Shown in pieces: positions 3,913-40,480 of a DNA stretch of 64,000 nucleotides (its first letter is position 1; each line of letters starts with the position of its first letter). Made by a program: the position numbers and the translations under genes. This DNA is from Ensifer sp. IC3342. GTDB taxonomy: Bacteria > Pseudomonadota > Alphaproteobacteria > Rhizobiales > Rhizobiaceae. Under the pieces are notes generated by a model that worked only from the letters and a program-made list of their open reading frames with translations, did not search any database and had not been told where the DNA came from. The stretch lies in the NCBI RefSeq assembly GCF_020193655.1, contig NZ_JADYVE010000012.1, positions 1 to 64,000 on the forward strand, given 5' to 3'.

Positions 3913-4734
3913 ATGAGACAACTCAGTGAAGAGGGCCGACGGACCCTGGGAGGGATTGCAGAGCGGTACGGGGTCAGCTTCGGCGCGGTGGAGCACCTTC
4001 TGATGGCGATTATCGCCGGACAGGCGACACAGGCCCAATTCAACCATCCCGATCTGGGTGGGATGGGGCAATGGTCGCAGGGCGGCATGATCATGGTCGG
4101 CGACATGTTCAACAATGCGCTGAAGGCGAAGGTGGCCGGGATTTGTTCCGAGCTTGCGGCCTTGGTGCGCGGCATGGATTTGCTGGGCCCGCAGACGTCG
4201 CGCCAGTCCCAATATCAAGGTCAGGGCGGCGGCGTCAGCCTGTTCGTGCCTGGCGCGCTGTCGGCTGGGAACTGGTGGCCCGAGGAGTTAGGGCATCCTG
4301 CCTCGACCGGGGCGCAGAATGACCTGCGCTATGCCTTTTTCCCGACAACCCGACGGCTGGCGATCGATATCGGCGGCCGGGTTACGGTCTATGACACGAA
4401 GGACCATCGCATTGGCGGGTTCTCGCAGCAGCAACGCGGCGACCAGTCGCTGAGCTTTACCTCTCAGCATGGGCTGGTGAAGATTTCCGAACTGGATGTG
4501 GTACCGCAGGGCGGCAAGGAACCAACGCCGGGTACCGGAACATCCGCCGCCACGGCTGCGCCGTTCGCATCGGAATCCGCCGAGCCACAAGGGGCACATC
4601 CAGCGCCGGAGGGGGTTCGGTCGGATGAGGACATCTTCGACAAGATCGAACGCCTCGCGGCACTTCATGCGAAAGGCATTCTCACGGATCAGGAATTCGA
4701 GGCCAAGAAGTCGGAGTTGCTCGGCCGACTATAG
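3913..4734 (+). CDS. SHOCT-domain protein
   Basis: A 273-residue protein. The C-terminal 35 residues form a SHOCT motif: DIFDKIERLAALHAKGILTDQEFEAKKSELL, a short amphipathic oligomerisation segment. The N-terminal two thirds (RRTLGGIAERYGVS, a glycine-rich middle, then DLRYAFFPTTRRLAIDIGGRVTVYD) look like a conserved domain found with SHOCT in other alphaproteobacteria, but its role is not known. A low-complexity Ala/Pro/Thr linker joins the two. GGAG near 3892 supports the start. It begins 57 bp after the cyclase gene on the same strand and may share its transcript. No signal peptide or membrane segment is seen. Confidence 0.8.
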   Translation: MRQLSEEGRRTLGGIAERYGVSFGAVEHLLMAIIAGQATQAQFNHPDLGGMGQWSQGGMIMVGDMFNNALKAKVAGICSELAALVRGMDLLGPQTSRQSQYQGQGGGVSLFVPGALSAGNWWPEELGHPASTGAQNDLRYAFFPTTRRLAIDIGGRVTVYDTKDHRIGGFSQQQRGDQSLSFTSQHGLVKISELDVVPQGGKEPTPGTGTSAATAAPFASESAEPQGAHPAPEGVRSDEDIFDKIERLAALHAKGILTDQEFEAKKSELLGRL

Positions 4735-4876
4735 CATCCGATGAACGGGGCTTGCCACCATCCTGTTCCCGATCGCCTAACAAGCGGGGTGTGTGACAAT
4801 CCGGATTCGACCCTTCTGCACAGCGTCCGTATCCGACCCCGTTGCGGTCATCCGTGAAGGAAACGAACGTCTTATT

Positions 4877-4957
4877 TGGTGAAGGTTTTTCGATGCGGGC
4901 CGACACAGGCCCAGCCGCGACCGTCACGCTACGGCCCGCATCGAAAAACCTTCACCA
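4877..4957. repeat. long perfect inverted repeat (26-bp arms)
   Basis: Arms at 4877-4902 and 4932-4957 are perfect reverse complements of 26 bp, separated by 29 bp. The arms contain GAAGGTTTTTCGATGCGGGC and its complement. As RNA this would be a very stable hairpin. It sits 140 bp after the SHOCT gene. No uridine tract follows either arm, so it is not a textbook intrinsic terminator. Confidence 0.9.
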
Positions 4958-5127
4958 TTGCTACCCTTAACCGATAGCCTGTGAATTTCCGGTGTTGGCC
5001 CGAAGCGGACTGTCAATTCGTCGCGCGGGGACGGCAGCTTTGCGCCCCTTATCGGTCATTGAGGCAGTTGGTGGCTCTGCCCGAAAGCGGCCATAGCATT
5101 GGTTCGACGCGGCGACTTCTGTGCGCC

Positions 5128-5346
5128 GATACTGTTGAAAAAGTCCGTTTTCTGCGACGTCTGATTTGTTGGAGGGCCGTAGAGGCCGACAAAGAAAATT
5201 GAGGTGGGGGACCTGCCAATTTTGCGATCAAGGAGCGTGTGAGCCGCGTAGCGGAATTGAGATTGCATTGAGCAGTAACATTCACTGAGATCGCGAATTG
5301 GCCGAATTTTCGGCGAGCCCCGAGTTTGGACTTTTTCAACAGTATC
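5128..5346. mobile_element. MITE-like or IS-derived element with 19-bp terminal inverted repeats
   Basis: GATACTGTTGAAAAAGTCC at 5128-5146 and its exact reverse complement at 5328-5346 bound a 219-bp stretch with no transposase. The tetranucleotide CGCC flanks both ends (5124-5127 and 5347-5350), as expected for a 4-bp target duplication. The size and lack of coding potential fit a non-autonomous element or an internally deleted insertion sequence. The parental IS family was not identified. Confidence 0.75.
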
Positions 5347-5507
5347 CGCCACAAGCGGACAAAGCAAAGAGCGTCGCTCCATGCCGCGGCAGACGGAGCC
5401 GGGAGAAAATTGACGTGCAAGATCGCCTGGGCGGAGCGTCAAGGTTTTCCACGAACTGTCTGAAAGATCAGCCGACTAACCGGGTCGTTGAAAAGACCGA
5501 CAGGAAC

Positions 5508-6350
5508 TCAGCTTTTCACAAAGTCCGCCGCGCCGAGGGGAACAGGTCTGTAGCCGTCGACGTCGGCGATGTCATACTCCCGACCCAGCTCTGCCGCGAC
5601 CAGGACACGCCCGGATTTCGACATCAGCGCAGGGTCCCGCCAAAGTCCGGCGATGACATGGCCGATGAACCTCGGGGACTCGGAGTTGGACAAGTCGAAA
5701 TATTCGGCGTTCTGCATGACGGCTTCGGTGCGTACCAGCCCGGGATAGAGTGCGACGGCGGCGACTTTATGTGGACGCAGTTCATGTGCGAAGTCCGCGG
5801 CCATCTTGTCGGCGGCGGCTTTGGCCACGCCATAGATCGCGTTGCCGTCGTAGAATTGAGCTGCCCAGAATGAAATATTGACGATCAGACCGCGCTGCGT
5901 CGAGATCATCGTCGGCGCCACTGCGCGCGACATCATGAAAGCCGCCCTCAGGGCGGTGCCGATCATTGCGTCCCACCGCCAGACGGACTGCTCCCAGAAA
6001 GGGCGCGGCCAGGTAAAATCGCCATCCTCGACCATGTTTTCATAGCCGGGCCATGCATTGTTCACCAGAATGTCCAGCCTGTTGGCGGCGCTGATCTCTT
6101 CAGCCACGCGCTCGGTTTCGGCGTCGTTGCTGTGGTCGCAATGATGAACGACCAGTCGTCCGGGTAATGCCGCAGCCTCAAGCGCAAGCCCCTCCAGCGA
6201 TCCCGCGCGTTTACCTCCCAGGCTTGCTTCCGCCTCGGAACGGGTCCTGCCGGTAACGTGGACCGTGGCTCCCTCGGCGAGCAGCGACAGCGCAATCCCG
6301 CGGCCGACACCGCGGCTTGCGCCCGTAACCAACGCGACGACATCTTTCAT
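5508..6350 (-). CDS. SDR family NAD(P)-dependent oxidoreductase
   Basis: A 280-residue classical short-chain dehydrogenase/reductase. The cofactor motif TGASRGVG lies at residues 9-16, NNAW at 97-100 stands in place of the usual NNAG, Ser160 precedes the catalytic pair Tyr173 and Lys177 (YGVAK), and LYPGLVRTE follows. The overall arrangement resembles the DHRS1-like subgroup, whose bacterial substrates are mostly unknown. GGGAGG nine bases before the ATG supports the start. Flanking genes give no pathway context: an IS-like remnant lies downstream and a gene-free stretch upstream. The substrate cannot be inferred. Confidence 0.88.
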   Translation of the reverse strand: MKDVVALVTGASRGVGRGIALSLLAEGATVHVTGRTRSEAEASLGGKRAGSLEGLALEAAALPGRLVVHHCDHSNDAETERVAEEISAANRLDILVNNAWPGYENMVEDGDFTWPRPFWEQSVWRWDAMIGTALRAAFMMSRAVAPTMISTQRGLIVNISFWAAQFYDGNAIYGVAKAAADKMAADFAHELRPHKVAAVALYPGLVRTEAVMQNAEYFDLSNSESPRFIGHVIAGLWRDPALMSKSGRVLVAAELGREYDIADVDGYRPVPLGAADFVKS

Positions 6351-6685
6351 ACTGGCTAGCCTCCCATACGATGGCTGTTGCGGCAGGGAACATCGGAATT
6401 TTGCTGCAGGCGAAAACGGATGCTTGCCGCATGAAACCCTAGGGAGCAGTCAAATACAATCTCGCGTAGACTGCCCGATTAGGGCCGACTGCCGCCATGG
6501 CACAGATGCGCCACAAGCTGACATGGACGTGGGCTAGTACAGACTGGCCCGGCCCGGAGCCCTTGATCGGCGCGAACGCTTCCGGCAGCCAGTTCGTGAC
6601 GAGCAAGCGCCGGACGCCCGGAGAGGGGATGGTCTTGCGGCAACACCACGATAAGCGATGAGCGCTAATTATTCTGCGAAAATAC
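6351..6685. other. intergenic, nothing recognised
   Basis: A 335-bp stretch between the SDR gene and the hydrolase gene. No conserved reading frame, RNA gene or clear regulatory element was seen on either strand. Confidence 0.4.
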
Positions 6686-7282
6686 CTAGGCTGGCTTGCG
6701 CACTCGACGAATATCTTGGGTGACCTCAGCCAGATCATTGTCGAGCTGGTGATCGCGGCCGCTGAGACGGCGCACGTGCGCTTGCGGGATTGCCTTTGCG
6801 TAGAGGTTGAGGTGCGTCATGGGCGTCGTCTCATCGGCGTCGCCTTGGTAGAGATAGATGGTGACACGGGCGAGCGGCCCGGCCCAATCCCGAGCAGGAA
6901 TGATGTCATCACTCGGCCAGCCGCCGTCTCCGACGAAAGGCGCGGCAATTAGGCAGATAGCGGCGATGTGTCTCAAGAGCTCAGGTTGCTTGGTGACCGC
7001 GTGGATCAGGATCGTTCCACCGATCGAATGGCCAACCAGAATGGCGCCATCGTCCAGTTTAGCGATTTCCTGTTCAAGCGCGGCGCTCCAGGCACTGAAG
7101 TTTGGCTCTTCCTCGTTCGGCATGCGCGGATAGCGGACGTTATAGCCCGGCCCTAGCCCCCGCCTAAGGCTGGCGACAAGCTTGTCGTCCCATTCGTCAT
7201 AAGTGCCCTTGCCGCCGCCCTGGACGAAGAGCACTTGCCCGACGTCAACCTTCTTTCTGACCTCTGTTGAATTGGTGGACAT
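6686..7282 (-). CDS. alpha/beta hydrolase (RBBP9/YdeN-like)
   Basis: A protein of about 198 residues. QVLFVQGGGKGTYDEWDDK is the typical N-terminal strand and oxyanion-loop region of small serine hydrolases of the RBBP9/YdeN type. GHSIGG is the nucleophile elbow with the catalytic Ser. GDADETTPMTHL carries the likely acid, and SGRDHQLDND contains the likely catalytic His. The substrate is unknown. The start was placed at the ATG at 7282 because family members begin close to the first strand; an in-frame ATG at 7330 would add 16 residues, and neither has a strong ribosome binding site. It lies alone between gene-free stretches. Confidence 0.8.
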   Translation of the reverse strand: MSTNSTEVRKKVDVGQVLFVQGGGKGTYDEWDDKLVASLRRGLGPGYNVRYPRMPNEEEPNFSAWSAALEQEIAKLDDGAILVGHSIGGTILIHAVTKQPELLRHIAAICLIAAPFVGDGGWPSDDIIPARDWAGPLARVTIYLYQGDADETTPMTHLNLYAKAIPQAHVRRLSGRDHQLDNDLAEVTQDIRRVRKPA

Positions 7283-24617: not shown

Positions 24618-25604
24618 TCATCTCCCCCCGGGGCGGCGTGAGTGCCAATTCCAGGCGGATTCTGTGATCGCGGCAAGGTCGTATTGCGGCTCCCAGCCGA
24701 GCACCGCGCGTGCCTTGTCGTTGTTGGCGACCAGCGTGGTCGAGTCGCCTTCGCGCCGCTCGGCATAGCGGATGTTGAACGGCCGCTTCGCAACCTTTTC
24801 GATTGCGCTCAGAAGCTCCTTGACCGTCGTGCCGGTGCCTGTACCGAGATTGAGCTCGACGCTCTTGCCGCCATCCAGCAGATAGTCGACCGCCCGCACA
24901 TGCGCATCGGCCAGGTCGAGGACGTGGATGTAGTCGCGCACGCAGGTGCCGTCGCGGGTATCGTAGTCGGTGCCGAACACGCTGAAACTTTCCCGCCGGC
25001 CAAGTGCCGCGTCGATCGCGAGCGGTATCGCGTGGGTTTCCGGCTCATGCCACTCGCCGATCCGTCCTTCAAAGTCGGCACCGGCGGCGTTGAAATAGCG
25101 CAGGATCACGGAGCGCAGGCCCTTGTAAAGACCATAGTCCTTCAGCGCCTGCTCGCAGACCCATTTCGTGCGCCCATAGGGGTTGATCGGCGCCTGTTTG
25201 TGCGTTTCGTCCATCGGCACGCTATCGGGCAGCCCGTAGGTGGCGCAGGTGGACGAGAACACGAAGGCATCAATCCCGGCAGCAAGCGCCGCCGACAGCA
25301 AGGTGAGCGTGCCGATGACATTGTTGTCGTAGAATGCAGCCGGATCCTTCACCGACTCGCCGACTTCAATCATGGCCGCAAAATGCAGGATCGCACGCGG
25401 CTTATATCGTGCAAGAACGTCATCGAGACGCTTGCGGTCTCGAATGTCACCTTTTTCAAGAACGCCCCATTTGACGAATTCTTCATGGCCGTTCGAAAGG
25501 TTGTCGTAGACGATGGGCTGGTAGCCCTTGGCGGCCAGCTGGAGGCAAGTATGGGAGCCGATATAGCCGGCGCCGCCGACGACAAGAATATTGTTGTTCT
25601 GCAC
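24618..25604 (-). CDS. galE: UDP-glucose 4-epimerase
   Basis: A 328-residue extended SDR enzyme interconverting UDP-glucose and UDP-galactose with bound NAD. Visible marks: VVGGAGYIGSHTCLQL (cofactor loop), YDNLSNGHEEFVKW, VFSSTCATYG with the catalytic Ser, NPYGRTKWVCE with Tyr and Lys, RYFNAAGAD, and GTCVRDYIHVLDLADAHVRA, all typical of GalE. The GTG at 25604 has GAGG six bases upstream and starts one residue before the first strand, so it is preferred over an upstream ATG. It is the last gene of the GDPD-HAD-nucleotidyltransferase-GT2 operon and likely supplies UDP-galactose for the polysaccharide. Confidence 0.95.
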   Translation of the reverse strand: MQNNNILVVGGAGYIGSHTCLQLAAKGYQPIVYDNLSNGHEEFVKWGVLEKGDIRDRKRLDDVLARYKPRAILHFAAMIEVGESVKDPAAFYDNNVIGTLTLLSAALAAGIDAFVFSSTCATYGLPDSVPMDETHKQAPINPYGRTKWVCEQALKDYGLYKGLRSVILRYFNAAGADFEGRIGEWHEPETHAIPLAIDAALGRRESFSVFGTDYDTRDGTCVRDYIHVLDLADAHVRAVDYLLDGGKSVELNLGTGTGTTVKELLSAIEKVAKRPFNIRYAERREGDSTTLVANNDKARAVLGWEPQYDLAAITESAWNWHSRRPGGR

Positions 25605-25757
25605 AGGCAACCTCAGGGATGACTTGGGAAGACTGCGATAGACGCGTAGGCTCCGCAGCGGCGAATTTCCAACACATTGTGAACGTCCTGAAGGAGCGGT
25701 ATTTTCTTCCGGTAACGCCGCCGTTTCGACGACGGTACCGACCACAGTTAGGTCTCG

Positions 25758-26732
25758 TCATACTCCCGCCTGACGGTGCGGCAGGCACTCGACGACGTTT
25801 ACAACGGCCGAGCGGGAAGCAGCCAGCGCCCGCAGCAGGCGTTGCCGATGAAGTGCATGCGCTCGCGGACTGGGTCCGTTCGCCAGCGCCGTGCGGGCGG
25901 TCCGTATCGGCTCGGCCAGGTTGGCGGCAACCTCCGGCAGCGCCACCACCTCTGCCTCCAGCCGGTCGAGGTAGGCGCCGAGCCCGTCCGCCGCAGCCTG
26001 GCGCAGGCGGGCGGTAGGGGCAGCGTAAAGCTTGTCCGCCGCCCAGCGCAGGTGCTCCTCGGCATGCCGGTGCAGCGCCTGTGGCTGCTTGTAGGCCCGG
26101 TGGTCGCCGAGGAGGCCGGCGACATAAGCTACCTCGCCAAGCTCGCCGCAACGCCACCATAACTCCATGTCCTGCAGGTACTGCCAGGCAGGGTCCCAGC
26201 AACCCGCCTCAAAGAATACATCGGTTCGGATGGTCGCGCCCGGCATCGCAATCATGTTGTTGAGCAGCAGCAGTTCCCGGAACGCTTCGCCATTGTTGCT
26301 GTAGCTCCACGGGAAACGGTGACCGGGTATAGGCGCGCCGTCATAGGTGATCTGCCGGAAGCGGCCGTGGACCAAGGCCGGGCGGCGCCTTGCCGCGCGC
26401 CCAATCGCCTGCAGTGCCCCCGGCGCCAGACGATCATCTGCATGCAGGGTGACGAGGTAATCCGCATGCGACCCGGCGGCGTAGGCGCGGTTCCAGTTGT
26501 CGGTGCGGGAGGCCGTGTCCTGGTGCAGCGCCGGCCGCAATCGGGGCGAGGCGTGGGCCTCGATGATCTCCCGGCTGCCGTCCGAGGAGCCGTTGTCGCA
26601 GACATGCACTTCGAAGGCCGGGTAGTCCTGCGAGAGTGCGCTTGCGAGCGCCTCGGCAAGGGTCTCAGCATTATTGAAGCAGGGAATGATGATGGCGAGA
26701 GAGGGCACTTTTGTGGATGGCTGGGCTGTCAT
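25758..26732 (-). CDS. family 2 glycosyltransferase
   Basis: A 324-residue GT-A fold glycosyltransferase. LAIIIPCFNNAETLAEALAS and VHVCDNGSSDGSREIIEAH form the nucleotide-sugar site, LVTLHADDRLAPGAL contains the DxD-like metal-binding pair, and DMELWWRCGELGEVAYV holds the acceptor/catalytic ED-like region. A C-terminal helical extension of about 90 residues lacks a known motif. No membrane helix is present, so it acts at the cytoplasmic face. It is expressed with the nucleotidyltransferase genes, starting 21 bp after the preceding one, and is the best candidate to transfer whatever activated donor that operon produces. The substrate is unknown. Confidence 0.85.
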   Translation of the reverse strand: MTAQPSTKVPSLAIIIPCFNNAETLAEALASALSQDYPAFEVHVCDNGSSDGSREIIEAHASPRLRPALHQDTASRTDNWNRAYAAGSHADYLVTLHADDRLAPGALQAIGRAARRRPALVHGRFRQITYDGAPIPGHRFPWSYSNNGEAFRELLLLNNMIAMPGATIRTDVFFEAGCWDPAWQYLQDMELWWRCGELGEVAYVAGLLGDHRAYKQPQALHRHAEEHLRWAADKLYAAPTARLRQAAADGLGAYLDRLEAEVVALPEVAANLAEPIRTARTALANGPSPRAHALHRQRLLRALAASRSAVVNVVECLPHRQAGV

Positions 26733-26753
26733 AGCTAACTCCCCTCCGTCTTT

Positions 26754-27542
26754 CTACGGCGTGTCGGTGGTCGCTGGCGATCGCTCAACAAGCCGGTCCG
26801 GTCGGCCAGGCTGCCCCGCCGCCAATTTGACATCCCATACATTGCGCGCGGGTAAGCACCGCACGTCGAGCCCCTGCGCCACGACGCCGTTCAGCATCGG
26901 GCAGACGAAGAGCGCGCCCTGGTGCGACAGCGTCGCGCGATGGTGCAGGCTGTGCGCAAAGGCCGCGTGGAAGACAGCGACGTCGCGAAATGCATAGACG
27001 CCAGCCGACGCGTTCCCGGAGATGACCACCTTCTCCCTCGCCTCCTGCATCCGCCCATCCGGCGCAAGCCGAAGATAGCTGTATTGCGGATGGCGTGAGG
27101 CGAAGGTCAGCGCAAGGCCGCCGAGAGCGGGGTCGGCCGCGAAGGCTGCGGCCACATCCGCATCGCTCTCGAACATGATGTCGCAGAGATCGACAATAAC
27201 CGGCGCCTCCGGCCAGGCGACCAGCGCTGCGCCCGCCACGGCGCTCCAGGCGCCGCCGGCGCTGGCATGCGACAACCAGATGATCCTCGCCGCAGGGTAT
27301 TGCGCACGGAGCGTCTCCCGCGCAAAGCGCTGCGACGCGGCGGTGTCGCGCAGCACGAAGACGGGCGTTGCGGCCGCGCTCCACCAGGGACGTGCCTTGA
27401 GGGTGGCGCTGAGCAGCGTGGCGCCTCCAACCACCATCTCCGCCTTCACCGAGCCATCGGGCCGCTCAAAATCCTGCCCCGCCAGGGGAATGATAACGTT
27501 CAGCGGCGTCGAATGGCCATGTCTTGCGCCCGCATCAGGCAT
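26754..27542 (-). CDS. divergent nucleotidyltransferase-like protein
   Basis: A protein of about 262 residues that reads as a sugar-nucleotidyltransferase-type Rossmann fold: LNVIIPLAGQDFERPDG at the start, VKAEMVVGGATLLSATL, a central PVIVDLCDIMFESDAD, and FCP-like ending FVCPMLNGVVAQGLDVRCLP. The canonical GxGxR-PK signature of active enzymes is absent (PLAGQDFERPDG instead), so it may be inactive, regulatory or specific for an unusual substrate. The ATG at 27542 overlaps the stop of the upstream tandem nucleotidyltransferase gene by 8 bp, indicating coupling. Longer open frames upstream are read-through of that gene. Confidence 0.65.
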   Translation of the reverse strand: MPDAGARHGHSTPLNVIIPLAGQDFERPDGSVKAEMVVGGATLLSATLKARPWWSAAATPVFVLRDTAASQRFARETLRAQYPAARIIWLSHASAGGAWSAVAGAALVAWPEAPVIVDLCDIMFESDADVAAAFAADPALGGLALTFASRHPQYSYLRLAPDGRMQEAREKVVISGNASAGVYAFRDVAVFHAAFAHSLHHRATLSHQGALFVCPMLNGVVAQGLDVRCLPARNVWDVKLAAGQPGRPDRLVERSPATTDTP

Positions 27543-29028
27543 AGGCTGGCTCGCGGTCCTGCAGGTACTCGGCCAAATCCTCCGGCGTGCCCAGGCCGTG
27601 CATGCTGCTCTTGTCGATCTCATAGACGCCGATGCGCGCCCCGTTGCGGATGGCGTAATTGTAGGTCGGGCAGACGTAGAACTCGCCATTGGTGCGGTCG
27701 TTGTGCACCATCATGTCGAGTGCCGCCTTCATGTAGTCGCCCGCGCGGCGAAAGAGATAGATGCCGACCGTTGCGAGATCGGAGATCGGCTGCTTTTCGG
27801 CGACCCGCAGCACCAGGCCGGCCGCATCGGTTTCCGCGAAGGACCATTTCGGATCGCGTGTCCGGTCGCGGAAAACGAGGATCGACCCGTCCAGGCCGCG
27901 CGAAATGCAGTCGTCAATGAAGTCACCGATGCGCATGTCCACCACTTGGTCGGAGTTGGCGATCAGCAGCGGTGCCTCTTCGTCGATTTGCTGGCGAGCC
28001 AGCAGCACGGTGCAGGCGGTGCCCTCGGTGAGCTGATTGACCGGAACGACGCCTACGCCCTGCGAGCGAAGCTCCGCTACCGCATCGGCCTGGCTGTGCA
28101 GGTGGTCGCGCAGCAAAAGTACGGTCGGGCGGCCACCCGGCGGCAAGGCGTTGTCCAGCACATGTTGAATCATCGGCCGGCCCAGCACGTCGATGAAGGG
28201 CTTCGGATGCTGGAAGCCGACCTTGGCGAAGCGGCTGCCCCGCCCGGCCGCTGGCACCACCAGTTGCACCGGCCGGCTGGCATGCGTGGAGGACAGACGC
28301 TGCACCCCATTCACCTCGAAATTCTCGATCATCTTCGGGTTGTAAAAACTGTGGTACCGGTCCGCGCCGATGGCGGCCGAGACGACGCGGCCGCCGCCGA
28401 GAATTACCTCGTTCAACGAGGAGCTGACATAGTACCGCCCTTCCACGGTGACGCCGTGCCGCAGCGCAGCCGCGGCCGCCTTGAAGAACAGCTGCGCCTC
28501 GCGGAAATAGTAGAACCCGGCGATCGCCTGGTTGCTGATCACCTCCTTCTCGGAGGTGCGGTTCACCAGGCCGTCATCCCCAAGGGTCGCATAGGACCAG
28601 CGCGGATGGATCGTCTCGAACGTGATGACGCCGGCATCTGCCCGGGCCGCCTCGAACTCTGCGATCACCGAAGAGAGACGGATGTCGATGATCTGATCGC
28701 TGTTGGCGATGACCAGCGGCTCGGTCGGGTCGATGACGTCGATCGCCATGAGGCAGGTACACAGCGCTCCGGCCGTCGACCCCTTCAACATCAACATCTG
28801 CGAGCGACCGCCCGTGCTGAGGTCGAAGATCCGCTCGTAGGAATATCGGACGGCCTCTTGCTGATCGACGACGAACAGGAAGCGTGTCTCGGCGCCGAGC
28901 GACTTCATGTTCTCGATGGCCCATTGGATCATCGGCTTTCCCGCCACTTCGATGAGCGGGCGCGGATAAGCGTAGTCTTCCGGGCTGAAGTAAGGGCTCT
29001 GGCCATTGGTCGGGAATAGCACGATCAT
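27535..29028 (-). CDS. tandem nucleotidyltransferase fusion (two NTase domains)
   Basis: A 497-residue protein made of two nucleotidyltransferase-like domains. Domain 1 (about 1-245) starts VLFPTNGQSPYFSPEDYAYP and has RPLIEVAGKPMIQW and IANSDQIID; the P-loop-like GxGxR is missing and the usual PKP is PRP. Domain 2 (about 253-497) is canonical: VVPAAGRGSRFAKV, HPKPFIDVLGRPMIQHV, and IANSDQVVD at 358-364. Both domains keep the NSDQ element and a FYV(S/C) stretch near the end, so they look like an internal duplication in which one copy has drifted. A role in making an NDP-activated sugar or polyol is likely from the family; the substrate is unknown. Its start overlaps the HAD gene stop as ATGA. 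Confidence 0.8.
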   Translation of the reverse strand: MIVLFPTNGQSPYFSPEDYAYPRPLIEVAGKPMIQWAIENMKSLGAETRFLFVVDQQEAVRYSYERIFDLSTGGRSQMLMLKGSTAGALCTCLMAIDVIDPTEPLVIANSDQIIDIRLSSVIAEFEAARADAGVITFETIHPRWSYATLGDDGLVNRTSEKEVISNQAIAGFYYFREAQLFFKAAAAALRHGVTVEGRYYVSSSLNEVILGGGRVVSAAIGADRYHSFYNPKMIENFEVNGVQRLSSTHASRPVQLVVPAAGRGSRFAKVGFQHPKPFIDVLGRPMIQHVLDNALPPGGRPTVLLLRDHLHSQADAVAELRSQGVGVVPVNQLTEGTACTVLLARQQIDEEAPLLIANSDQVVDMRIGDFIDDCISRGLDGSILVFRDRTRDPKWSFAETDAAGLVLRVAEKQPISDLATVGIYLFRRAGDYMKAALDMMVHNDRTNGEFYVCPTYNYAIRNGARIGVYEIDKSSMHGLGTPEDLAEYLQDREPAYA

Positions 29029-29654
29029 GCCGCCACCTCCGATACAAGGTTGATCTCGGAAACGATCCTGGCGTACACGACATCGGCCGGCGAGCCGACC
29101 TGCAGGACATGCGCGCCGCTGTCGCGGGCCGCCTTCAGGCCGTATTCATTGTCTTCCAGGATCAGGCATTCCCTCGGCTGCAGGCCGAAGCGTTCCATCG
29201 TGGTCAGGTACATCTCCGGATCCGGCTTGGAGCGGGTGACGTCCTCGTTCGAGACGATCAGGTCGATGTAGTCGATCAGCCCGGCGCGCCGCATCATGGA
29301 TTCGACGGTGTCGCGGATCGAGTTCGAGCAGACTGCGATCTCGTAGCCCTCATGCTTGAGGCGGCTGAGGGCGTATTGATGCGCGAAGACCGGCCGGCAG
29401 CGCGTGTAGATCAGCTCCATCGTGTAGTCCTGCTTCAGCGAATGGATCAGCTCGCTGAGGCCATGCGGCAGGCCGTTGGAGCGGGACAGTATTTCCAGCT
29501 TGCGGCGGGTCGGCAGGCCGTCGAAGGTGGCAAGGTGCGCCTGACGGTCGATCGGCATGCCGAAAAGCTCAAGTGCCCGGTTCAGTGCCTCATAATGCCA
29601 TTCCTTGGCATCGATCAGCACGCCATCCATGTCGAAGAAAACACCTCGGATCAT
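29025..29654 (-). CDS. HAD-superfamily phosphatase/phosphomutase
   Basis: A 209-residue HAD hydrolase of the beta-phosphoglucomutase/GmhB-like class. Motif I is FFDMDGVLIDAKEWHYEALN with both Asp residues, motif II VCSNS, motif III the Lys in RSKPDPEMYL, and motif IV ILEDNEYGLKAARDSG. A small cap domain lies between motifs I and II. Such enzymes remove or move phosphate on sugar phosphates; substrate specificity cannot be read here. The ATG at 29654 overlaps the stop of the GDPD-like gene (ATGA), and its own stop overlaps the tandem nucleotidyltransferase start, so three genes are tightly coupled. Confidence 0.85.
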   Translation of the reverse strand: MIRGVFFDMDGVLIDAKEWHYEALNRALELFGMPIDRQAHLATFDGLPTRRKLEILSRSNGLPHGLSELIHSLKQDYTMELIYTRCRPVFAHQYALSRLKHEGYEIAVCSNSIRDTVESMMRRAGLIDYIDLIVSNEDVTRSKPDPEMYLTTMERFGLQPRECLILEDNEYGLKAARDSGAHVLQVGSPADVVYARIVSEINLVSEVAA

Positions 29655-30322
29655 TGGACTTCCTCCTGATGCATCCAGGCGAAGCGCTGCTGCGCTGAAT
29701 CCGGCAGGTCGGTGCACAGCATCAGTCGCTCAAGCGGCAGACCGCCCATCGCAGCACGTCGAAGCGCGGCCGACCACTCGGCCCAGGCCGCTTCCTGCGG
29801 ACGCTTGTGCAATTCCGGCGACACCATCGCGACAAACTTGCCGCGTGCAAGATCATCGATGGCGCGCTCGATCGAAGCGGGTGCTTCGGTGAAGGAGTCC
29901 ACCCACACGCCCTGACAGCGTTCATAGAAGGCCGGGTAGCGCTCAACCTCGCTGAAGCGGGTGAAGACCGGAAGGGCGGTTTCGAGATAAGGCCTGAGAT
30001 CCGGGACCGACGCGTCAAAGACGAAGGCGCGGTTCATCACGCCGTAGCGCGCGAGCAGCGGGACGAGCGCGGAGCAGAGACCGTCTGCCTTGATGTTGAT
30101 GGCCAGCCGGCCCGGAGCGCCATGTGCCGCGTAGCACTCGAGCACGCGCTCGAAAGGCAGGGCTCCGGTTGCAGGGAGATCGTGCGAAATGACGAGGGCA
30201 CCGTTTAGATCGCGAACATCCAGCTCGACGCCGTGGCCGGCGGCAAAGGCCTTATCGAAGGCCGCCAGAGTGTTTCGCTCATGGGGCGCATGCCACCAGC
30301 CACGATGCGCAAGGATCATCAT
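29651..30322 (-). CDS. glycerophosphodiester phosphodiesterase-like protein
   Basis: A 223-residue TIM-barrel phosphodiesterase of the GDPD-like group. ILAHRGWW carries the catalytic His and Arg; HERNTLAAF stands where the usual ENT motif occurs, with an inserted Arg; GVELDVRDLNG and LVISHDLP hold the metal-binding Glu/Asp and the second catalytic His. Typical GDPD enzymes cleave glycerophosphodiesters to glycerol 3-phosphate; this compact version without a signal peptide would work in the cytoplasm. It has two ATGs in a row at 30322 and 30319; the first overlaps the stop of a 33-codon upstream frame. It is the first large gene of the galE operon. Confidence 0.8.
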   Translation of the reverse strand: MMILAHRGWWHAPHERNTLAAFDKAFAAGHGVELDVRDLNGALVISHDLPATGALPFERVLECYAAHGAPGRLAINIKADGLCSALVPLLARYGVMNRAFVFDASVPDLRPYLETALPVFTRFSEVERYPAFYERCQGVWVDSFTEAPASIERAIDDLARGKFVAMVSPELHKRPQEAAWAEWSAALRRAAMGGLPLERLMLCTDLPDSAQQRFAWMHQEEVQ

Positions 30323-30420
30323 CGGTCGCGCGCCCCGGCCAGACGGGTCGCAATGCCTGCGCCAGCCCCGTGCTCAGCGCCTGCCCGCGTCATGTTTTCA
30401 CGTCGTGCTCTGGTCACCAT
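30319..30420 (-). CDS. 33-codon leader-type ORF upstream of the GDPD-like gene
   Basis: ATG at 30420 follows GGGAGGTGAAAG, a strong ribosome binding site, and encodes 33 residues starting MVTRARRENM and ending GARDR. Its stop overlaps the GDPD-like start (ATGATGA), so its translation could control the operon. The promoter, ribosome binding site and first codons match those of the ExoY-like gene at 40825, whose product starts MVSRAQSREA. It thus looks like the duplicated 5' end of that gene reused as a leader. Whether the peptide is made or has a role is unknown. Confidence 0.5.
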   Translation of the reverse strand: MVTRARRENMTRAGAEHGAGAGIATRLAGARDR

Positions 30421-30522: not shown

Positions 30523-30758
30523 AATCGCGCTGAGTATGGCGCAAGTGATTGATTATCTAGTCTTGTTTAGGACCGAAACGTCTTCTGGAAGAATGATTTT
30601 GCCGAAGTGATTCTCCAAGAAAACAATCCCTTTCTGACTTGCCCATGCTCTTTGCTTTCGTGCTGGAGATGCCCGTTGCGCTTTTTATTTTGCGGCAAAG
30701 ATGTAACTGAGGAATGTAATGCTATCCCCGGCCTCGGCGTGCCTTGGATGCGCCGCCG
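30523..30758. other. AT-rich divergent promoter region
   Basis: AT-rich sequence between the divergent GDPD operon and the flippase gene. It is expected to hold the flippase promoter. No further copy of the palindrome was seen. Confidence 0.4.
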
Positions 30759-32294
30759 ATGAGTTCGTCAGACACCGTAACCGGCCCGAAGGTGGGCCAG
30801 GCGGCAGGCCGCTCATCCACCTCGCGCGATGCGCTCTGGGTATCCGGCGCCCGCTTGGTCAGCCAGCTCTGCGGCATCGGCGCCCTGCTGATCGCCGCGC
30901 GCATCCTGTCGCCGGCGCAGGTCGGCGTTTTCGCCATGATTTCGGCAATCGTGCTGCTGCAATCCAAGGTCGCTGAGGCCGGGTGGAGCGAATACCTTAT
31001 TGCTGCGCCGCGCGGCAGGGAGTTGCCCGCGACCGTGCTCTATTGCGCGCTTGCGAGCGGCGCCGTCTTCACGCTCATCGGCCTCTGCGGGCTCGCCGTC
31101 TGGCTTGTCTGGATGGAACCCGAAGGCGCCATCTTCCTCACCCTGCTCCTGCTGATGGCCACTATCGTTCCCGGCACCTTCATCATCTGCCAGAGCGGTG
31201 TGCTGGTGCGGGCACGGCGGTTGCGTGACCTTGCCTGCTATCAGGCGATGTCCGAGCTCTGCGGCCTGCTGGTCACTGCTGGAGGATTGCTGCTGGGGTG
31301 GGATATCGTTGCACTGGCGGCAGGGCGCTGCTGCGTAGTGCTCGTCGCGCTGGTGATGTCTACGAGCTTTGCGCGCTGGCTGCCTCGCTTTGAACTCAGG
31401 CTGAGTGTCGCCCGAGAGGCCTCGGCCTATTCGGCGCGGCTGCTGATGTCGCGGCTGATACAATTCGCGCAGAGCTATGGAGCGGAGTTCCTGATTGTGT
31501 TCTTCATCGGCGTGGCTGAGGTTGGCCTCTACCGGATCGCCAGCCGCATGGTGGGCGCGGTGACCGAGCTCATCTCCGAGCCGGTGCGAATGCTGGCCTG
31601 GAGTTACTTCTCGCGCCAGCAGGGCGATGCAGGTGGCCCCGAGGGGTTGGGCCGCCTTACCGGGCTGATGTTGGCCGGCACGGCTTTCGCAGCACTTCCG
31701 GTCTTCCTGGGCCTCGCTGTGGTCTCGCAGACGCTCGTGCATGTGCTGCTCGGCGAGCAGTGGCTCCCGGCTGCCCCGGTTCTGGTCCTTTTGGCCGCCG
31801 CGCGGGGCATTGCTGTCGTCCAGATGCTGAACGAGCCTGTGCTCAGCATCATCGGCCGCGTCGCCCTGTTGCCGCACCTGAACATGCTGTTTACTGCGGC
31901 GAGCCTTGCCTGCCTTGGAATCGCGGGTTGGATCAGGCCACAACTGCTCGACATCGCCATTGCGCAGGTGGCGGCAGCGGTGCTGACCACGGCTGCATCG
32001 CTCCATGTCCTGCAGCGTGGCACGGGGTTCCGCTGGGGGCCGCTGCTGCGCAGGATCCTACCGGCCGGCCTGGGCGCGTGCGTGATGGTCGCCACGGTCG
32101 AGGTGTTGCTCCAGACGACGGGCGGCTTCCGCCTGCTTCCCGTGATGGAACTGCTGGCCGGGGTGGCGGTGGGCGGCCTCGTCTATGGCGTCATCGCCTG
32201 GCCCAGTGGGCGTGCCTTGATGGCGGAGCTCAGCCATGTGACGGAACCCACTGCTGCGCCGCGCGTCTTGTCAGACGCGCCAACGACGCTGTAG
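30759..32294 (+). CDS. Wzx-like polysaccharide flippase (MOP superfamily)
   Basis: A protein of about 511 residues with about twelve to fourteen membrane helices. The early segment ALWVSGARLVSQLCGIGALL and ARILSPAQVGVFAMISAIV are typical of the oligosaccharide flippase family, as are SRLIQFAQSYGAEFLIVFF and LYRIASRMVGAVTEL in the middle. It would flip the lipid-linked repeat unit across the inner membrane. The start is uncertain: an ATG at 30759 and a TTG at 30744 are both possible and neither has a clear ribosome binding site. It lies alone on the plus strand, divergent from the GDPD operon and convergent with manC. Confidence 0.87.
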   Translation: MSSSDTVTGPKVGQAAGRSSTSRDALWVSGARLVSQLCGIGALLIAARILSPAQVGVFAMISAIVLLQSKVAEAGWSEYLIAAPRGRELPATVLYCALASGAVFTLIGLCGLAVWLVWMEPEGAIFLTLLLLMATIVPGTFIICQSGVLVRARRLRDLACYQAMSELCGLLVTAGGLLLGWDIVALAAGRCCVVLVALVMSTSFARWLPRFELRLSVAREASAYSARLLMSRLIQFAQSYGAEFLIVFFIGVAEVGLYRIASRMVGAVTELISEPVRMLAWSYFSRQQGDAGGPEGLGRLTGLMLAGTAFAALPVFLGLAVVSQTLVHVLLGEQWLPAAPVLVLLAAARGIAVVQMLNEPVLSIIGRVALLPHLNMLFTAASLACLGIAGWIRPQLLDIAIAQVAAAVLTTAASLHVLQRGTGFRWGPLLRRILPAGLGACVMVATVEVLLQTTGGFRLLPVMELLAGVAVGGLVYGVIAWPSGRALMAELSHVTEPTAAPRVLSDAPTTL

Positions 32295-39711: not shown

Positions 39712-40434
39712 TCATTTCGCCGAGAACGTGCTGTCGGCGTAATCTTGCAAAGCCTTGCGGTTAAGGATGCGGATCCGCCCCTGTGCTCCGTCGATGATCT
39801 TGCTCTCCCGCAATCGCCGGAGGCACTTGTTGACCTTCTCGCGAGAGGCTGGAAGCGTCGCCGCAAGCTCGTGCTGTGAAATGGTCAATTCGTCCCGGGA
39901 GTTTGGCGCGTCCTTGGCGTAGACCTTCGAAAGCCGCAAGAGCGTGCTTGCCAGTCTTGATTGCAGGCTCGACCCGGCGTTCGAAATGATGCGGAGCTCG
40001 AGCTCCGAAACACGCGCCAATGCCTTGAACAGGACCGCTTCCTGAAAATCCGGATCGCTGGCGTATCTCTCGCGCAGCAGCCGTCCTTCGAAGAAGTGAA
40101 GTTCGCAATCCGCAGCGGCGCGATATTCAAGACTGAGCGTCTGCCTCCGCAGGACTTCGAGCTCACCAATGATCCCCGCTTTGGGTATGATTTCGACGAT
40201 GAACTCCCTGCCATCAGGCAGCACGGTGCTCGCGATGACCAGGCCGTGCTGCACGCGGGCGAACTTGTCGATGCGGACGCCTGCCATGGCGATGACCTCG
40301 CCGCGGCGAAAGGTTCTCACACTCGAGCGACAGAAGGCGAATTCATCGTCCGCGGCTGCGCGGCGCCCCCCGCCGAGAGGCGGCACAAGCGCCCGACTGA
40401 CACTGTAATCGCGGATGGGTATGGGGCCGTCCAT
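39712..40434 (-). CDS. Crp/Fnr-family transcriptional regulator
   Basis: A 240-residue protein. The N-terminal two thirds form a cyclic-nucleotide-binding-like barrel (RTFRRGEVIAMAGVRIDKFA, GLVIASTVLPDGREFIVEII, GIIGELEVLRR). The C terminus has a winged HTH (ISQHELAATLPASREKVNKCLRRLRE). The Fnr-type cysteine cluster is absent. The ATG at 40434 follows GAGGAG by 8 bases. It lies upstream of two coupled GT genes. ATATGT-N6-ACATAT stands 47 bp before the start, which suggests autoregulation; the TGACC-N2-GGTCA sites in three exopolysaccharide promoters are candidate targets, though binding is inferred. Confidence 0.9.
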   Translation of the reverse strand: MDGPIPIRDYSVSRALVPPLGGGRRAAADDEFAFCRSSVRTFRRGEVIAMAGVRIDKFARVQHGLVIASTVLPDGREFIVEIIPKAGIIGELEVLRRQTLSLEYRAAADCELHFFEGRLLRERYASDPDFQEAVLFKALARVSELELRIISNAGSSLQSRLASTLLRLSKVYAKDAPNSRDELTISQHELAATLPASREKVNKCLRRLRESKIIDGAQGRIRILNRKALQDYADSTFSAK

Positions 40435-40480
40435 ACGCTTCACTCCTCGAGCAAGATCCAGGGTGAAATGCTGCAGCGCA

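Follow-up and report, generated by a model that had tools for sequence, protein, structure and literature searches.

The CDP-glycerol, CDP-choline (LicC/LicD) and heptose (GmhB/HddC) pathways share one logic, in which a nucleotidyltransferase (NT) works together with a phosphatase. In the GDP-mannose pyrophosphorylase GMPPA/GMPPB (7d72-7d74) and in the plant VTC1-KJC2 complex (8yre), the complex pairs two related chains that share a nucleotidyltransferase fold, and GMPPA is the regulatory partner of GMPPB. Likenesses to both were found in a gene module of Ensifer sp. IC3342, located in a stretch of 64,000 nucleotides (contig NZ_JADYVE010000012.1, positions 1 to 64,000 of the forward strand; hereafter the window). 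The module comprises a phosphodiesterase resembling glycerophosphodiester phosphodiesterases (GDPD-like), a HAD hydrolase, a fused protein, NT2, with the NT-like domains NTa and NTb, and a third NT-like protein, NT3, in place of which other loci carry a small cupin. To our knowledge, a GDPD-like member and partners of the NTa, NT3 or cupin kind are absent from the CDP-glycerol, CDP-choline and heptose pathways, and the GMPPA/GMPPB system has no GDPD, HAD or cupin partners. We tentatively read the region, with slightly less than even confidence, as a conserved donor-making module in a Wzx-type exopolysaccharide (EPS) locus, in which NTb would be the live enzyme and NTa and NT3 its pseudo-enzyme partners. 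Its probable product is an activated building block for surface sugars.

The HAD, NTb and GDPD searches each matched 24 of 72,556 plasmid records with identical accessions, several of which were near copies, so that 24 exceeds the number of independent events. The chosen E-value limits were 1e-40 for HAD and NTb, 1e-12 for GDPD, 1e-10 for the cupin and 1e-15 for NT3; looser limits for HAD and NTb would admit general relatives. The accession lists (HAD, NTb and GDPD; NT3 versus cupin) were compared by eye, twice. Among the loci cited below, L004-L013 were close relatives, L054 was the same plasmid as L032, and L085, L087 and L088 repeated L074, L002 and L003, respectively. The core module was found in Rhizobiaceae, Azospirillum, Rhodobacterales, Acetobacter, Sphingomonas, Pseudomonas, Bacteroidales and Clostridia, and the plasmid loci came from Azospirillum, Tropicibacter, Ruegeria, Roseinatronobacter, Acetobacter, Pseudomonas and Scandinavium. 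A search of genome contigs with NT2 gave 18 loci; 17 of them, from Rhizobiaceae, Sphingomonas, Bacteroidales and Clostridia, had HAD followed by the NTs, and the eighteenth (L019) was a weak match.

In the whole-genome draws, the HAD profile at 1e-60 matched 5 of 337 genomes of the window's class, and 3 of 274, 2 of 198 and 2 of 299 genomes in the other draws, centres included; in the order of G832, the only match among 54 genomes was G832 itself. NTa adjoined HAD in all eight matches that were not centres, GDPD adjoined HAD in seven (the exception was L053), and NTb lay within the retrieved stretch in seven (not in L068, which stops at the contig end). Gene order varied. NTb was located ahead of GDPD and HAD in L027, L031, L033, L048, L050, L062 and L071, and in L032 it was located further upstream together with the cupin. 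The host genome (7.4 Mb) was close to Ensifer/Sinorhizobium, and S. chiapasense had the same cluster with 91-99% protein identity. Within the genus of the window, the HAD gene was found in six of 33 genomes, counting that of the window, which indicated that the gene set is accessory.

These sequence comparisons showed that GDPD-like, HAD, NTa and NTb are inherited together, along with either NT3 or a small cupin, and the module is not an oddity of one genome. The view that the set works as a unit was supported, because the same genes recurred across phyla and three of them matched identical plasmid records. The cross-genome neighbourhood search that the earlier note had put forward as a check thus gave a positive result, with the reservation that gene order varies. 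Scandinavium GDPD-HAD DNA was also compared with E. coli genomes, in search of a strain whose O- or K-antigen is known, and no match was obtained. In public plasmid records, the module proteins were annotated as 'hypothetical protein', 'HAD family phosphatase' or, misleadingly, 'glycosyltransferase family 2', and GDPD was called 'phosphodiesterase' only twice. The last of these names was given to NTa, NTb or the fused protein (e.g., L031, L058 and L030), and the module is therefore hidden in public records.

A reduced, fused form of the module was found in cyanophages. In L065, L066 and L075, one protein (461 aa in L065) joined HAD with an NTb-like domain; the same phages encoded another HAD from that family, along with several small proteins bearing a GQPR motif close to the N-terminus. 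A short GDPD-like protein was found in cyanophage DSL-LC03 as a weak profile match (22.5 bits). Among 398 genomes, the GDPD profile gave seven matches, five of which (L055, L056, L057, L069, and L070) came from a different operon type. Named from reading the sequences, the proteins of this second operon were a class II aldolase-like protein, a tandem NT, a GT2, a GDPD-like protein, a large membrane protein with a kinase-like end and a HAD. It was most complete in L055 and L056, and the tandem NT was present in the stretch of four of the five loci (not L057). Its GDPD-like protein belonged to the family of the module's own and kept N-x-K. This suggested either that a GDPD-like protein came to be combined with tandem NTs on more than one occasion or that both systems have a common root.

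NT2 (27535..29028, minus strand, 497 aa) matched PF00483 over two stretches (4.5e-23), corresponding to NTa (residues ~1-245), which is devoid of GxGxR, and NTb (~250-497), which carries the full signature. It matched 7d72 and 8yre both by sequence and by fold; unlike GMPPA/GMPPB, it had no hexapeptide-repeat family among its Pfam matches. The nearest solved relative of NTb was a nucleoside-diphosphate-sugar pyrophosphorylase from Vibrio cholerae (4evw; E 4.4e-24 and 3.1e-17), a structural-genomics entry whose title does not name the substrate, and this was also the top Foldseek match of NT2. HddC of the heptose pathway (5xhw) matched an NTb weakly (E 6e-6). The NT2 model (pLDDT 83.8, pTM 0.60) was built from mixed fused and single-domain rows, and it superposed on several single-domain chains only to ~16 Å. 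Modelling of the nucleotidyltransferases, another check that had been suggested, gave fold matches (4evw, 7d72, and 8yre), and the domain packing of the model was left aside.

NT3 (26754..27542, minus strand, 262 aa) appeared to be a degenerate nucleotidyltransferase-like protein: no Pfam or NCBIfam match was obtained at E <= 0.01, and it was recognized by similarity to the NT2 protein (31% identity over NT3 residues 51-224, E 6e-13). Motifs were counted with the near-duplicate loci L003-L010, L012, L013, L016, L054, and L059 left out and with second-system and phage sequences counted apart. GxGxR was present within the first 60 residues in 30 of 31 NTb, and in none of 29 NTa or 14 NT3; the only NTb without it was a fragment of the gene split in L033. 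The EK..[IVL][ST] motif was kept in all three (30/31, 28/29 and 14/14, respectively). NTb had the sugar-1-phosphate nucleotidyltransferase signature (GxGxR...PK) along with its PF00483 match and appears to be catalytic; NTa and NT3 appear to be pseudo-enzymes in which a sugar-phosphate pocket would be retained. Three working nucleotidyltransferases were not supported by this signature, since GxGxR was kept in NTb alone. Of the double and the third nucleotidyltransferase described earlier, only NTb is thus backed by its signature; NTa and NT3 lacked GxGxR, and NT3 lacked a family match as well.

NTa and NTb were separate genes in the cupin-type relatives, and also in L052 and L053. They were fused in most NT3-type loci and, within the module, fusion was limited to this type (it was absent from L052). 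NT3 was found in 17 of the 24 plasmid records and the small cupin in the other seven, and no record had both. Among the retrieved stretches compared, 24 had NT3, 16 had the cupin and none had both, counts that include near relatives and the repeat of L032 in L054; L077 was a further cupin case. Both were missing from the stretches of L018, L053, L062 and L068 and from the cut stretch of L059, and in Acetobacter pasteurianus the cupin was located ~90 kb from the cassette. The distribution of the two forms was not simply that of taxonomy, with NT3 in Tropicibacter and the cupin in Ruegeria and Roseinatronobacter. Their mutually exclusive exchange offers a clean case either of two unlike proteins that do the same work or of a pathway with two branches. 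In Acetobacter persici (L033), NTb was broken into two frames; in Scandinavium (L032), NTa was shortened, with insertion sequences not far away.

The GDPD-like protein (29651..30322, minus strand, 223 aa) matched PF03009 weakly (E 5e-4; 20.7 bits, under the gathering score of 23.6), and no match was found in NCBIfam. Its AF2 model (pLDDT 91.4) nevertheless clearly predicted a GDPD fold: the comparison with the GDPD 2pz0_B in VIA-align gave Z 19.4 and an rmsd of 2.6 Å over 195 aligned residues, and the rows that followed in the structure search were tied and mostly GDPDs. H6, R7, E33, D35, H47, N76, and K78 were invariant across 31 GDPD-like sequences. The protein thus shares the TIM-barrel fold with the glycerophosphodiester phosphodiesterase family and keeps H6 and H47, which we take to be the two catalytic histidines, as well as E33 and D35, presumably the E-x-D metal pair. 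However, the residue invariant as Asn76 in all 31 proteins aligned with the Glu of 'LEIK' in 7wwc, and in GDPDs this Glu is a metal ligand. The GDPD identity assigned at the outset accordingly held for the predicted fold, with the Pfam score and the replaced metal ligand as departures.

The HAD protein (29025..29654, minus strand, 209 aa; PF13419 6.8e-35) was a subclass IA hydrolase similar to beta-phosphoglucomutase. It shared with that enzyme the HAD fold, the Asp pair D8/D10 and H20, but it scored below the cut-offs of both mutase models (118.3 against 153.35 bits for TIGR02009, and 92.7 against 189.4 bits for TIGR01990). K45 and R49 are functional residues of beta-phosphoglucomutase, and the corresponding positions were Asp and Thr in the HAD protein. 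Its best match was a phosphorylated carbohydrate phosphatase, and it was 56-59% identical to the copies in Sphingomonas, Bacteroidales and Clostridia.

In rhizobia, the module was associated with a flippase and a glycosyltransferase. The GT2 gene (25758..26732, minus strand, 324 aa; PF00535 1.3e-21) was kept with the module in L002-L013, L064, L074, and L084-L088, which represent Ensifer and Rhizobium-type EPS loci. The gene for the Wzx-type flippase (30744..32294, plus strand; PF13440 3.6e-35) was divergent from the module, and this position was conserved in both types of loci. All 11 Rhizobium-type loci (L004-L013 and L064) kept wzx, GDPD, HAD, NT2, NT3 and GT2. It is likely that the rhizobial module takes part in surface glycan synthesis, because it is kept with the flippase and GT2. 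Outside rhizobia, its neighbours were other GT2-family proteins, WavE, Glyphos_transf, LicD or no annotated transferase. WavE matches were found in the stretches of 10 loci, the duplicate L054 aside (L015, L016, L030, L031, L032, L058, L063, L068, L071, and L073), and were confirmed by Pfam in the three tested (L015, L058, and L068). A GT2 with weak similarity to the rhizobial GT2s was located behind NTb in L018. The proposal that GT2 transfers the unit to the exopolysaccharide was retained here, and its extension to all carriers of the module was not supported.

Under the donor-making proposal, the GDPD-like enzyme would release a phosphomonoester from a phosphodiester, and the HAD enzyme would shift or strip a phosphate, which would yield the substrate for NTb. 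Only NTb would carry out nucleotidyl transfer, onto a phosphorylated sugar or alcohol. NTa and NT3 would bind either the sugar phosphate or the product and would control the NTb complex or keep it together, a role like that of GMPPA towards GMPPB; in other branches the cupin would replace NT3. The activated unit, perhaps transferred with its phosphate, would then pass to a surface glycan via a local transferase. Here this would be GT2; elsewhere WavE, Glyphos_transf or LicD proteins may serve. We favour this proposal because of the identical plasmid records for HAD, NTb and GDPD, the exclusivity of NT3 and cupin, the adjacency of HAD to NTa and GDPD in the genome draws, and the fusions of HAD with NT in cyanophages and of NTa with NTb in most NT3-type loci. 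The restriction of GxGxR to NTb while EK..[IVL][ST] was kept in all three also argues for it, as do the GDPD fold, the rhizobial flippase and GT2, and the phosphotransferase genes near three loci that are described below.

Several observations weigh against the proposal. The substrate, nucleotide and activities in this scheme are putative. The PK motif was kept in 19-20 of 29 NTa, depending on the way of counting, and NTa may still be catalytic. With an Asn in place of an expected metal-ligand Glu, the GDPD-like protein may not hydrolyse. L053 and L018 had HAD, NTa and NTb with no GDPD in the stretch examined, which in L018 starts at a contig end. The cassettes of L035, L060 and L049 had no annotated or evident adjoining transferase, and the tie to surface glycans is thus not universal. 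The leader open reading frame (ORF) in front of GDPD has no explanation in this scheme. As a side observation, genes for a PHP-domain protein and a Glyphos_transf protein (5734-7008 and 4499-5605) adjoined the GDPD-less cassette of L053; the former was considered as a replacement for GDPD and was dropped, as the upstream ORF in L018 was dissimilar and had no Pfam match.

A sharper form of the donor-making proposal, which is possible but doubtful, is that a CDP-alcohol or CDP-phosphosugar is the product of the module: GDPD would free an alcohol phosphate from a glycerophosphodiester, HAD would adjust it, NTb would add CMP, and a LicD-, TagF- or WavE-like enzyme would transfer the phospho-unit as a phosphodiester. 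The GDPD fold in the module core points in this direction. A Glyphos_transf gene near L018 and L053, and in L077 two LicD genes directly after NTb, fit a phosphate-bearing donor without proving it. However, such phosphotransferase neighbours were limited to these three loci, two of which had no GDPD in the stretch examined, and neither LicD nor Glyphos_transf was found among the 16 window proteins scanned. In L077, a CTP_transf_like/GFO_IDH_MocA protein was encoded further on; with a CTP_transf_like gene of its own nearby, LicD need not use the product of the module, which also counts against the donor-making proposal in general. Besides, NTb was nearest to sugar-1-phosphate enzymes and to 4evw, the entry with no substrate in its title.

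Two other explanations seem unlikely. Promiscuous phosphatases are common among HAD class IA hydrolases, and the HAD protein matched a phosphorylated carbohydrate phosphatase best, which would suit an ordinary NDP-hexose pathway in which NTb makes the NDP-hexose, and HAD and the GDPD-like protein act in repair, taking off wrong phosphates or phosphodiesters. Repair enzymes are rarely retained as strictly as the three genes in the same 24 records, though, and the fusion of HAD to an NT in cyanophages also speaks against a clean-up role. It is similarly improbable that NTa and NT3 are transferases on the shared GT-A-like fold, so that the cassette both makes and transfers the unit. This would account for the cassettes devoid of an annotated adjoining transferase and for the loss of GxGxR with retention of the EK motif, but the occurrence of a cupin in place of NT3 in seven of the 24 plasmid records is hard to reconcile with it, and the retained PK of many NTa is also against it.

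Compared with these alternatives, the donor-making proposal stands as the best reading of what had been called an undescribed activation pathway, in a narrower form that leaves out galE and counts a single nucleotidyltransferase as live by its signature. No description of the GDPD-HAD-NT set was found in the open-licence PMC literature, a scope outside which most subscription papers lie. It is conceivable, albeit on the doubtful side, that the set represents an undescribed donor route, running from a GDPD-fold phosphodiesterase through a HAD mutase to one live and one or two dead NT copies, with a cupin able to replace the third copy and a phosphate-bearing donor new to surface glycans. Working out a single case would identify a surface-sugar building block across Pseudomonadota, Bacteroidales and Clostridia and, in its reduced form, in cyanophages.

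The gene set from GDPD to galE was present in the window as first described, all on the minus strand, and the gene order in the Ensifer loci was galE, GT2, NT3, NT2, HAD, GDPD, wzx, manC, manB and GH16. GDPD overlapped HAD by 4 bp, HAD overlapped NT2 by 4 bp and NT2 overlapped NT3 by 8 bp. The coupling by 4- to 8-bp overlaps was thus confirmed as far as NT3, but it did not extend to GT2, which was separated from NT3 by 21 bp. In comparison with L064, the GDPD, HAD, NT2, NT3 and GT2 genes were under coding constraint, with differences of 0.08-0.19, 0.05-0.14 and 0.31-0.48 at codon positions 1, 2 and 3, respectively. The galE gene (24618..25604, minus strand) encoded a UDP-glucose 4-epimerase (TIGR01179 422.8 bits, above the cut-off) and adjoined GT2 in the Ensifer loci, at a distance of 153 bp in the window. 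In the examined flanks of all 11 Rhizobium-type loci, no tblastn match of at least 50 bits was found for galE, manC or manB. Therefore, galE was ruled out as a module member and regarded as a neighbour only, and its inclusion in the operon pathway was not borne out. In L049, from a 1.8 Mb genome, the cassette was located between hisZ- and purA-like genes, as judged from the N-termini of the neighbours, and no evident polysaccharide genes were seen in the stretch examined.

The leader ORF (30319..30420, minus strand, 33 codons) had a 4-bp overlap with GDPD. It was open in six distinct Ensifer loci (window, L002, L003, L074, L084, and L086), with 31-36 codons, where it overlapped GDPD or ended just ahead of it. 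Leaving out L003, the substitutions at codon positions 1, 2 and 3 between the window and the other loci were 7/5/6 (L002), 1/2/3 (L074), 2/0/1 (L084) and 2/2/2 (L086) over 28 codons. No third-position bias, and hence no coding signature, was seen in these Ensifer comparisons, and with substitutions spread so evenly nothing indicates translation. Only dissimilar short ORFs of 20-34 codons were found as counterparts in the five Rhizobium-type loci compared. The leader announced earlier is thus an open frame in six Ensifer loci, and its status as a protein-coding gene is unproven.

The GMC oxidoreductases of the window and of a Pseudomonas plasmid had only short stretches in common (29-34%). About 200 bases upstream of GDPD, a TGACC-TT-GGTCA-like inverted repeat was read by eye in the Ensifer loci (window, L002, L003, and L074), and a TGTTAC-CAAA-GTAACA-like inverted repeat was read by eye at the same place in the Rhizobium-type loci (L004, L005, L006, L011, and L064). 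The window also encoded a Crp-type regulator (39712-40443), and any link between it and these repeats would be a guess.

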